The notes under the pieces are model-generated. The model ran no database searches. It saw only the letters and a list, made by a program, of their open reading frames with translations, and had not been told where the DNA came from. The position numbers and the translations under genes are program-made. Below are positions 59,929 through 64,000 of a stretch of 64,000 nt of DNA, piece after piece; the first letter of the stretch is position 1, and every line of letters starts with the position of its first letter. Source of the DNA: Paracoccaceae bacterium (GTDB taxonomy: Bacteria > Pseudomonadota > Alphaproteobacteria > Rhodobacterales > Rhodobacteraceae). The stretch is taken from contig JAKITO010000007.1 of the NCBI GenBank assembly GCA_021648025.1, forward strand, positions 1 through 64,000, read 5' to 3'.

Positions 59929-61272
59929 ATGAAGAAATTCGTGATGGCCGCGGTTGGCGGTACTTTGGCAGGCATTTTGGCAACAACCCAGGTGGCAGGG
60001 CCACTTTTGGCGCAGGAATCCACGCGCAATGTCAACATTTACGAGCAGCTGGACCTGTTTGGTGATATTTTTGAACGCATCCGCGTGCAGTATGTCGAGG
60101 AGGTCAACGAGAAAGATCTGATCGAGGCGGCAATCAACGGCATGCTGACCTCGCTTGATCCGCACTCCAGCTATCTTTCACCCGAAGATGCCGCCTCTAT
60201 GCGGGTACAGACGCGCGGGGAATTTGGCGGCCTGGGCATCGAAGTCACGCAGGAAGAGGGCTTTATCAAAGTTGTGTCACCCATCGACGGCACCCCGGCA
60301 GACGAGGCCGGGATCGAAGCTGGTGATTTCATTACCCATGTTGACGGCGAAAGTGTTCTGGGGCTGACCCTTGACAAGGCAGTCAAGTTGATGCGCGGCC
60401 TGGTCGGAACCGAGATTATCATCACCGTAGTGCGCGAAGGCGAGCCAGAGCCGTTTGATGTGTCGATCATCCGTGATACGATCAAGCTGACGGCGGTACG
60501 GGCCAGGACCGAAGGCACCACTGTGGTGCTGCGCCTGACCACCTTCAACGATCAAACCACCCCAAACCTTGAGTCCGGGATAAAAGAACAGATCGAAGCC
60601 GCTGGCGGAATCGAAAACGTGAGCGGGTTTGTTCTGGACCTGCGCAACAATCCCGGCGGCCTGCTGACCCAGGCGATTCGAGTGTCCGACGCGTTCCTTG
60701 AATCGGGCGAGATTGTCAGCACACGGGGCCGCAACCCCGAGGATGGCGAGCGGTTTAACGCCACACCCGGTGATCTGGCCGGCGGTTTGCCGATGGTGGT
60801 GCTGATCAATGGCGGATCGGCGTCCGCCTCTGAAATCGTGGCCGGCGCGTTGCAGGACCATCGCCGGGCGATTGTTGTTGGCACCAAAAGCTTTGGCAAA
60901 GGCTCGGTTCAGACGGTGATGCCTTTGCGTGGTGACGGGGCAATGCGCCTGACCACGGCGCGTTATTACACACCGTCGGGCCGGTCGATTCAGGCGTTGG
61001 GTGTATCGCCAGACATCATAGTTGACCAACCCCGCCGCAAACCAGAGACCGAAGAAGAGGATGAGGAAACCAAAACTTCGCGCAGCAGACGCTCTGAGGC
61101 CGATTTGCGGGGCCGGTTGAACAATGACAGCCTGTCCGAAGACGAGATTCGCCAGATCGAAGAAGACCGCACCAAGGCGGAAGCCGCCGCTGATCTTCGG
61201 GAAAAGGATTATCAACTGGCCTATGCGATCGACATTCTGACTGGATTGTCAGCGCTTGCGCCAACGAAGTAA
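59929..61272 (+). CDS. ctpA: C-terminal processing peptidase (S41 family, CtpA)
   Basis: This 447-aa periplasmic serine peptidase has a signal peptide or anchor (AAVGGTLAGILATTQVAGPLLA). The N-terminal helical cap follows, then the PDZ domain (GGLGIEVTQEEGFIKV to LMRGLVGTEI, about 95-180). The catalytic Ser is in NGGSASASEIVAGAL and the Lys in GTKSFGKGSVQ, about 25 residues apart, as in the Ser-Lys dyad. The C-terminal stretch (EEEDEETKTSRSRRSEAD) is highly charged. It trims C-termini of envelope proteins and often controls wall hydrolases, consistent with following the EnvC-like gene. Confidence 0.96.
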   Translation: MKKFVMAAVGGTLAGILATTQVAGPLLAQESTRNVNIYEQLDLFGDIFERIRVQYVEEVNEKDLIEAAINGMLTSLDPHSSYLSPEDAASMRVQTRGEFGGLGIEVTQEEGFIKVVSPIDGTPADEAGIEAGDFITHVDGESVLGLTLDKAVKLMRGLVGTEIIITVVREGEPEPFDVSIIRDTIKLTAVRARTEGTTVVLRLTTFNDQTTPNLESGIKEQIEAAGGIENVSGFVLDLRNNPGGLLTQAIRVSDAFLESGEIVSTRGRNPEDGERFNATPGDLAGGLPMVVLINGGSASASEIVAGALQDHRRAIVVGTKSFGKGSVQTVMPLRGDGAMRLTTARYYTPSGRSIQALGVSPDIIVDQPRRKPETEEEDEETKTSRSRRSEADLRGRLNNDSLSEDEIRQIEEDRTKAEAAADLREKDYQLAYAIDILTGLSALAPTK

Positions 61273-61986: not shown

Positions 61987-62550
61987 ATGTACGATGACAT
62001 TGTTTGTAATATCCCCGAAGGCCGGTGCAGCGATCATACCTATCGTCTGGCCGTATATGAAGCAGGTCATGCGCTGACCGCGCGCGCGCTGGGGCTGAAA
62101 CTCATCTCGGTCAAGATGCTGCCGCGTCCGCCGGTTCTGACCAGCGACAAGGCGTTTGCCAATAACGATTGGGGTGCATTTGTCGAAATGTTGGAAAACC
62201 GGATTATCGAGTTATTCGGTGGTCAGATCGCCGAACAACACTGTTGCGGCACCAATACCTGTTGCAGTGGAGACATTGCCCGGATTGATGAGCTTGCCAA
62301 GCTGGTGGCCGGTTTAAGTGGCGCGGAAGATTCCGAAGCGGTGATGTTCGAGCTTGAGGACGCAGCAATTGAGATTTTCGCCGATCAAAAATACCGCGAT
62401 GCCATTGTGCCTATTGCCGAGTTTTTGTTCCATCGGGCTGAAACGGGCAGAGAGGTCATTGACGGGCCGGATATTGAGGCCGAGCTGGACAAACATGTTC
62501 CTGTTGCCGAGCGGAAGACCTGGTTGAAGCGGGTGTTTTCCTTCGGGTAG
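61987..62550 (+). CDS. FtsH/M41 peptidase-like protein with altered zinc motif (YEAGH)
   Basis: This 187-aa protein resembles the isolated M41 peptidase domain of FtsH without AAA domain or membrane helix. RLAVYEAGHALTARALGL (about 20-37) aligns with the FtsH helix containing HEAGH, but the first zinc His is Tyr24 (codon TAT, one change from CAT). Glu25 and His28 remain. The third-ligand region GGQIAEQHCCGTNTCCSGDI (about 78-97) keeps the Asp, 68 residues after His28 (about 74 in E. coli FtsH). The insert with four clustered Cys and one His is unusual. It may be an inactive relative, or may bind metal through the Cys cluster. It is close behind the membrane coiled-coil gene, 26 bases apart. 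Confidence 0.65.
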   Translation: MYDDIVCNIPEGRCSDHTYRLAVYEAGHALTARALGLKLISVKMLPRPPVLTSDKAFANNDWGAFVEMLENRIIELFGGQIAEQHCCGTNTCCSGDIARIDELAKLVAGLSGAEDSEAVMFELEDAAIEIFADQKYRDAIVPIAEFLFHRAETGREVIDGPDIEAELDKHVPVAERKTWLKRVFSFG

Positions 62551-62612: not shown

Positions 62613-63194
62613 TTAGACCCCTTCCAGTTCCGACGACGGGATGACACGAAAAAACTGCCCCAAAGACCAAAGACCAAACCAACCTTCGTGATGCACCCCA
62701 AGATCGACCAACCGGTAAAAACTTTTGCGGTCGATCAACGCCTCCAGCCCGGCGCGGACCATTACATATGGCGAAGGCTCTCCCGTTTCTTCATCCCGGA
62801 CCACGCGAATCGGATTGTCTGGCCCGGCCGTGACCATGTCGTCGACCTGGGTGGTGAACTGCAAAACCTGGTCGGCGCCCGTCCCGGTTGCCTCAAAGTC
62901 CACCGCCACAAACGGCGCATCATCAACCGTGATGCCGACCTTTTCCACTGGAGTAACCAGAAAATACTTGCCCCCCTCCAATTTCAGGATCGACGAGAAC
63001 AGCCGTACCAGTTCAAACCGGCCAATCGGCGTGCCAAGGTAGAACCACGTCCCATCCCTTGCGATTCGCATGTCCAGATCGCCGCAAAACTCGGGGTTCC
63101 ACAGGTGAACCGGCGGCAATCCCCGCCCCTTGGAAGCCCGCACAGCGGCGGCAATGCCCTCAGCCGAGGGGGTAACAGTATTTTGTCCACTCAT
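62613..63194 (-). CDS. DUF1285 domain-containing protein
   Basis: This 193-aa protein matches DUF1285, a family of cytosolic beta-barrel-like proteins of unknown biochemical role. Conserved pieces are PPVHLWNPEFCGDLDMRIARDGTWFYLGTPIGR (split by the normal family pattern) and YFLVTPVEKVGITVDDAPFVA, with ATGTGADQVLQFTTQVDD following. The start at 63194 is chosen because AAGGA lies about 12 bases upstream; an ATG at 63206 is possible but leaves no space for the ribosome-binding site. It is divergent from the MoxR gene, a pairing I recall as common in alphaproteobacteria. Confidence 0.88.
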   Translation of the reverse strand: MSGQNTVTPSAEGIAAAVRASKGRGLPPVHLWNPEFCGDLDMRIARDGTWFYLGTPIGRFELVRLFSSILKLEGGKYFLVTPVEKVGITVDDAPFVAVDFEATGTGADQVLQFTTQVDDMVTAGPDNPIRVVRDEETGEPSPYVMVRAGLEALIDRKSFYRLVDLGVHHEGWFGLWSLGQFFRVIPSSELEGV

Positions 63195-63264
63195 TGCGTT
63201 TGTCATTCCTTCCCGGCACGATACAACTACACTGGCACTATATACGCCCCATGAAAGGAAAGTC

Positions 63265-64000
63265 ATGTCCGATCCTGACGCTCTTGTCGCCGAAATCGAG
63301 GCGCTGGAAGAAAAGTTGGCCGAAGCCAAGGCATCCATCACCCGGCGTTTCATCGGTCAGGAAAGGGTGGTCGATCTGACCCTGACCGCCCTTCTGTGCG
63401 GTGGTCATGCCTTGCTGATCGGCTTGCCTGGTCTTGGCAAGACGCTTTTGATTGAAACCCTGTCGACGGTGATGGGGCTGGATGGCAACCGCATCCAGTT
63501 CACGCCCGATCTGATGCCTGCCGATATTCTGGGGTCCGAGGTTCTGGATACAGACGCCGATGGGCGACGCAGCTTTCGCTTTGTGCCCGGGCCGGTGTTT
63601 TGCCAGTTGCTGATGGCCGATGAGATCAACCGCGCCAGCCCCCGCACCCAATCGGCCCTGTTGCAGGCGATGCAGGAACGTATGGTCAGCGTTGCGGGCG
63701 AAGATCGGCCGCTGGACGCACCATTCCACGTTTTGGCCACCCAGAACCCGATTGAACAAGAAGGCACCTACCCCTTGCCCGAGGCCCAGCTGGACCGGTT
63801 TTTGGTGCAGGTCGATGTGGATTACCCATCCCGTGAAACCGAGCGTGACATTTTGATGGCCACAACCGGCATAGACGAACTGGAGGCAACCCAGGTATTT
63901 GAACCGGGTGAATTGCTGGCGGCGCAGACGTTGCTTAGGCGCATGCCGGTCGGAGAATCGGTGGTCGAGATGATCCTTGATCTGGTGCGTGCCTTTCGCC
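63265..64000 (+). CDS. MoxR family AAA+ ATPase (partial at right edge)
   Basis: The first 245 residues of a MoxR ATPase are visible; the gene runs off the window. Walker A is GLPGLGKT (about 53-60), followed by RIQFTPDLMPADILGSEVL. Walker B with the sensor region reads LLMADEINRASPRTQSALLQAMQE, and ATQNPIEQEGTYPLPEAQLDRF is diagnostic for MoxR. AAAGGAA lies about 4-10 bases before the ATG. MoxR proteins usually work as chaperones with VWA and DUF58 proteins encoded downstream, which would be expected just beyond the edge (inference). Confidence 0.93.
   Translation, partial: MSDPDALVAEIEALEEKLAEAKASITRRFIGQERVVDLTLTALLCGGHALLIGLPGLGKTLLIETLSTVMGLDGNRIQFTPDLMPADILGSEVLDTDADGRRSFRFVPGPVFCQLLMADEINRASPRTQSALLQAMQERMVSVAGEDRPLDAPFHVLATQNPIEQEGTYPLPEAQLDRFLVQVDVDYPSRETERDILMATTGIDELEATQVFEPGELLAAQTLLRRMPVGESVVEMILDLVRAFR

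Follow-up and report, generated by a model that had tools for sequence, protein, structure and literature searches.

Introduction

Pseudo-proteases built on the M41 peptidase domain are already known, and those found described all keep the AAA motor. The chloroplast proteins FtsHi1-5 share the M41 fold, carry a broken HExxH motif, and live on in a membrane complex (PMC8197885, PMC11266112); they act in this complex in chloroplast import (PMC11266112, PMC8197885) and keep the ATP-binding motif (PMC11266112). Their AAA motor is kept, and nearly all of their active-site residues are lost. Furthermore, a small soluble partner has been described for a bacterial dynamin-like GTPase: RdcA (YjdA) of E. 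coli needs RdcB (YjcZ), which is co-encoded in the same operon, for regulation that depends on the GTPase (PMC6510439). RdcB is without similarity to proteins of known function, and the target of the RdcA-RdcB pair is a diguanylate cyclase (PMC6510439). Two other known systems resemble parts of the gene set described below, i.e., RND tripartite efflux systems of the MdtB/CmeB/AcrB type, which share the pump (ACR_tran) and adaptor (RND_mfp) matches, and LolA/RseB-fold carriers, which share the fold of a periplasmic protein of approximately 260 residues.

This report concerns a short M41-like gene in the window, the whole stretch of 64,000 nucleotides that was analyzed from a Paracoccaceae bacterium. 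Its product, referred to here as the YEAGH protein, differs from FtsHi in lacking the motor and in having lost just the first His. In the open-access literature, no matching description of a motor-less M41 protein was found, and a limited search of the same literature found no RND operon with ParA, dynamin-like, and M41-like genes. What sets the protein apart from known M41 pseudo-proteases is the survival, under selection, of the peptidase fold alone, in which a fixed Tyr has taken the place of one ligand. The new finding lies in the genomic context: strict co-inheritance with genes for an RND pump, a ParA-type ATPase, and a dynamin-like GTPase suggests a compact envelope-transport system. 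As far as sampled, this system is restricted to one family, and it appears to be previously undescribed; the gene set also supplies a partner list for asking what a motor-less M41 fold does.

The YEAGH Gene and the M41 Fold

The gene begins with an ATG start codon, and its translation contains ...LAVYEAGHALTARALG...; the coordinates of the features are collected in Table 1. No AAA domain is present in the ORF, as the first-pass annotation had stated, and neither a transmembrane segment nor a signal is predicted in the protein. Two further, normal M41 genes with frames of 662 and 635 codons are located elsewhere in the same genome, so the YEAGH gene is a third, short M41-like gene.

Table 1. 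Features of the YEAGH gene and its coiled-coil neighbor in the window
Feature	Position	Strand	Remarks
Stand-alone protein with predicted M41 fold	61987..62550	+	187 aa; ORF, family alignment, AlphaFold and PDB comparison
Invariant Cys14 codon	62026..62028	+	13/13 family members
Altered zinc motif Y-E-A-G-H, TATGAAGCAGGTCAT	62056..62070	+	Residues 24-28 (Y24-H28); HEAGH in FtsH
CCGTNTCC stretch with C86, C87, C92, and C93	62242..62265	+	Before the Asp ligand; alignment with FtsH
Asp96 codon, aligned with the third zinc ligand of FtsH	62272..62274	+	Asp in 13/13 family members and 8/8 FtsH
Coiled-coil neighbor, one N-terminal transmembrane segment	61529..61960	+	143 aa; co-inherited

The relationship with FtsH and m-AAA (MEROPS M41, PF01434) is based on the fold of the peptidase domain. 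The Pfam Peptidase_M41 profile (PF01434) matches with an E-value of 2.8e-4 and 21.3 bits, which is under the curated cut-off of 29.9, and hhalign against FtsH M41 domains returned 94.5% with an E-value of 7.5e-8. The structure was modeled with AlphaFold2 fed with a ten-row family alignment (pLDDT 80.8, pTM 0.82) and compared with the PDB by Foldseek and VIA-align 2. All 21 of the top PDB entries were FtsH, m-AAA, or FtsHi, with Z-scores of 11.7-14.6 over 122-161 residues, and the next unrelated fold reached a Z-score of 4.4. The catalytically dead FtsHi was among the best structural matches, tied in Z-score with active m-AAA and FtsH. Because the strong matches comprise only FtsH, m-AAA, and FtsHi, the M41 topology, for which a structural check had been proposed in the first-pass annotation, is confirmed, and the protein as predicted clearly has the M41 fold. 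In the predicted model, Tyr24 and H28 lie in a helix spanning residues 17-34, and D96 lies near the N-terminal end of a helix spanning residues 95-111.

Residues E25, G27, H28, an AE pair (E83), and G95-D96 are aligned with their FtsH counterparts, including the catalytic Glu (E25), the second His (H28), and the Asp ligand (D96), in agreement with the earlier statement that Glu, the second His, and the distal Asp are kept. By contrast with FtsH, the ORF lacks the AAA domain and the FtsH transmembrane region, and Tyr takes the place of the first His. The C-terminal part is also shortened, with approximately 31 residues of the C-terminal half of FtsH missing after residue 131 in the alignment. 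The family additions relative to FtsH are the conserved C14, C87, and C92, together with R33, E75, D101, and E102.

Active-Site and Cys Residues

Residue counts were taken from an alignment of 13 family members and eight FtsH proteins. Position 24 is Tyr in all 13 members and His in all eight FtsH proteins; the Tyr is encoded by TAT in six members and TAC in seven, and the motif in the window gene reads TAT GAA GCA GGT CAT. H28 and D96 are invariant, whereas E25 is kept in 12 of 13 members and replaced by Gln in L006. Accordingly, YExxH is found in 12 members, YQxxH in one, and HExxH in none. The loss of the first zinc His, noted previously from the window alone, therefore stands, whereas its attribution to a recent CAT-to-TAT change in this strain does not, because Tyr is present in every member through both Tyr codons; the outcome in which all homologues carry HEAGH did not occur. 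A sequencing error or strain mutation was likewise ruled out by the fixed Tyr and its two codons. Since the first His is lost, the canonical HExxH...D zinc site cannot form as written.

In some zincins, Tyr takes part in binding the metal, as established for astacins. An active protease with Tyr, His, and Asp ligands, in which an ATPase or GTPase of the gene set stands in for the AAA motor, would fit the retention of E25, H28, and D96 in 12-13 of 13 members. Nevertheless, the gene persists in L006 with its catalytic Glu changed to Gln, and the missing residues of the C-terminal half belong to the hexamer-forming region of the FtsH M41 domain, and we consider such activity very unlikely.

The Cys residues differ in their conservation. 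C14 and C87 are present in all 13 members and C92 in 12 (Ser in L006), whereas C93 is found in nine and C86 in one; C14, C87, and C92 are absent from the aligned positions of the FtsH proteins compared. The CCGTNTCC stretch with its four Cys had been described as an unusual insert that could supply another metal site. Neither an insert nor a metal cluster of four Cys is supported: conservation holds for C87 and C92 but not for C86 and C93, the stretch adds no net length because it takes the place of the FtsH loop ahead of the Asp ligand, and the invariant C14 had been overlooked. Selection still acts on the pocket, as the persistence of Glu, His, and Asp and the gain of invariant Cys show.

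The main rival to a partner protein with a disabled peptidase site is a rewired metal site, in which Cys (C92 and/or C87, possibly C14) replaces the first His and the metal is held with H28 and D96; E25 would then be the general base or a second-shell residue, and the protein a metalloenzyme or a metal or redox sensor. This arrangement is possible, if on the unlikely side. It is consistent with the family-specific conservation of the three Cys and with C92 being located only four residues ahead of the Asp ligand. Furthermore, the long-branch member L006 (5968-6552), with YQAGH and C92S, has lost the catalytic Glu and one Cys together, as if the two were linked, although the pattern comes from one event on a long branch. 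C14 precedes Y24 by ten residues and, judging from the model, probably lies before the motif helix begins; owing to this position, the three Cys need not share one site.

Family Distribution and Selection

Rhodobacterales genomes and MAGs contain close relatives with 53-73% identity (loci L004, L005, L006, L009, L010, L011, L015, L016, L017, L073, L074, and L075), and genome G232 has a broken copy. All 13 intact members are from Alphaproteobacteria and, where placed, from one family (Rhodobacteraceae-type); their length is 187-200 residues, depending on the start codon. Against 385 genomes of the class, the family profile matched only the window's own genome at an E-value of 1e-8, and in 398 genomes of the phylum the matches outside the family were all in open frames of 521-875 residues, as for FtsH. 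A stand-alone HEAGH intermediate was not found in these wider searches. A phage or plasmid origin was considered and rejected, as no relatives were present in phage records, plasmid records, or viral contigs. PHROG and PADLOC searches returned weak matches or none.

The YEAGH gene is under purifying selection, with dN/dS of 0.07-0.18 between members; in some pairs, synonymous changes are close to saturation. Decay of an FtsH fragment or a sequencing error might have been suspected, given that the motif is one base from HEAGH and that G232 carries a broken copy. This reading is refuted and retains practically no probability: all 13 members have the Tyr, through two different codons, dN/dS is low, the gene belongs to a conserved gene set, and two normal M41 genes are present besides it in the genome.

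In the tree, the YEAGH and FtsH groups are fully separated by a branch of 2.77, which is too long to name the FtsH paralogue of origin. A divergent FtsH paralogue was also observed at L021 (G266:C25), where an FtsH-like frame of 702 codons with HEAGHIVVAQALHV and ...AECSCLGSVSSGAGAG... lies on a very long branch.

Gene Set around the YEAGH Gene

Comparison of loci revealed a co-inherited nine-gene set that recurs around the relatives and has the YEAGH protein as one member. The other members are an RND adaptor (RND_mfp), an RND pump (ACR_tran, E 3e-140), a Pro-rich secreted protein, the LolA/RseB-fold periplasmic protein, a ParA-type ATPase (KGGTGKST), a TPR membrane protein, a dynamin-like GTPase (Dynamin_N, E 1e-13) with two predicted C-terminal hydrophobic segments, and a Met-rich coiled-coil membrane protein. 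At ten loci (L004, L005, L006, L032-L035, and L073-L075), the YEAGH gene comes immediately after the dynamin-like gene in the same orientation. In G002 and G003, which belong to the window's genus, the genes run coiled-coil, YEAGH, adaptor, and pump. In the window's genome, the set is split over two contigs: C4 carries the coiled-coil and YEAGH genes without the rest of the set, flanked by a C-terminal-protease-type gene (59929-61272) and a divergent gene, and C56 (L069) carries the adaptor, pump, periplasmic protein, ParA, TPR, and GTPase genes together.

The coiled-coil gene was found in eight of nine genomes tested and near the set wherever the contig was long enough. Its product in the window contains 19 Met in total, with Met every seven residues at positions 53, 60, 67, 74, 81, 88, 95, and 102, and such a coiled coil with a Met core could form a rod that responds to redox state or metal. 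The periplasmic protein was modeled with a pLDDT of 82.2 and resembles the RseB/MucB and LolA folds with Z-scores of about 8-11, a range in which the tool warns of common arrangements, and its match list is dominated by the LolA/RseB fold. A LolA/RseB-like carrier beside an RND pump would fit the export of lipid or hydrophobic cargo.

The exporter context and the Cys conservation would also suit a metal-free redox switch, in which a C87-C92 or C14-C87 disulfide turns the protein into an oligomerization or membrane-remodeling cofactor controlling the GTPase or the pump. However, a stable disulfide is unlikely at the predicted cytosolic location, and we regard this switch as improbable.

Co-Inheritance with the Dynamin-Like GTPase

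When 394 genomes of the family were searched, the YEAGH protein matched strongly in G000, G002, G006, G122, G195, and G379 and, as the broken copy, in G232; the dynamin-like GTPase gave strong matches in exactly the same seven genomes, again broken in G232. Among ten species of the genus of G195, four genomes carry both genes and six carry neither. Disregarding phylogeny, the chance of such overlap is 4e-15 for the 394 genomes, a value made too small by shared ancestry, and 0.005 for the genus. At the decayed set of G232 (L036, G232:C22:233000-252900), the middle part of the YEAGH gene is missing, the dynamin-like gene is reduced to a C-terminal piece, and only the adaptor and coiled-coil genes look intact; no ParA match was found in this genome. 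The presence, absence, and decay of the YEAGH gene thus coincide with those of the dynamin-like gene, except in G001, where the GTPase and ParA are present and a YEAGH match is absent in an assembly that is 76% complete. A functional link is favored by the pattern within the genus and by the shared decay in G232.

Proposed Role of the YEAGH Protein

A family-specific pseudo-M41 protein, most likely acting as a soluble cytosolic partner of the dynamin-like GTPase/ParA machinery, is the reading we favor, and we give it about an even chance. The protein is probably a repurposed partner of the gene set and not a working protease, because the key zinc residue is Tyr in every relative found and the gene is inherited with membrane-export and dynamin-like genes. 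The earlier suggestion of a pseudo-peptidase or regulator has accordingly gained support from the invariant Tyr, the M41 topology, and the tie to a non-proteolytic gene set. An FtsH-type peptidase fold would have been cut loose from the AAA motor and the hexamer, and the fixed Tyr would prevent formation of the normal HExxH...D zinc site, leaving a protein that presumably lacks proteolysis. It may then bind the neighboring dynamin-like GTPase as an adaptor or regulator within a putative membrane-associated machine of this GTPase, the ParA-type ATPase, and the TPR membrane protein. Such a machine would serve the RND pump with its LolA/RseB-fold periplasmic protein, and the YEAGH protein may thereby help to position or regulate the exporter. 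The RdcA-RdcB system likewise pairs a dynamin-like GTPase with the gene of a small soluble partner, although RdcA is soluble, whereas the GTPase of the set has the predicted hydrophobic segments. The loss of the catalytic Glu as well in L006 supports the pseudo-M41 partner; the almost complete conservation of Glu25, H28, and D96 counts against it, as a pure scaffold would need less.

An extension that we consider doubtful is that a new metal site of Cys87/Cys92, His28, and Asp96 senses metal or redox state and gates the dynamin-like/ParA machine that places or drives an RND exporter of lipids or hydrophobes. If so, the nine genes would form an undescribed system for envelope transport in which a pseudo-protease occupies the cytosolic end.

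As for the pseudo-M41 partner, the YEAGH gene lies beside the coiled-coil gene (and the RND adaptor gene in G002 and G003), not the GTPase gene, in the window's genome, G002, and G003, so another member of the set could be the direct partner.

Downstream of the YEAGH gene in the window, a divergent uncharacterized gene follows directly on the minus strand (62613-63353), and a gene for a MoxR-type AAA ATPase, as judged by sequence, lies on the plus strand (63268-64000); both are outside the set in other genomes.
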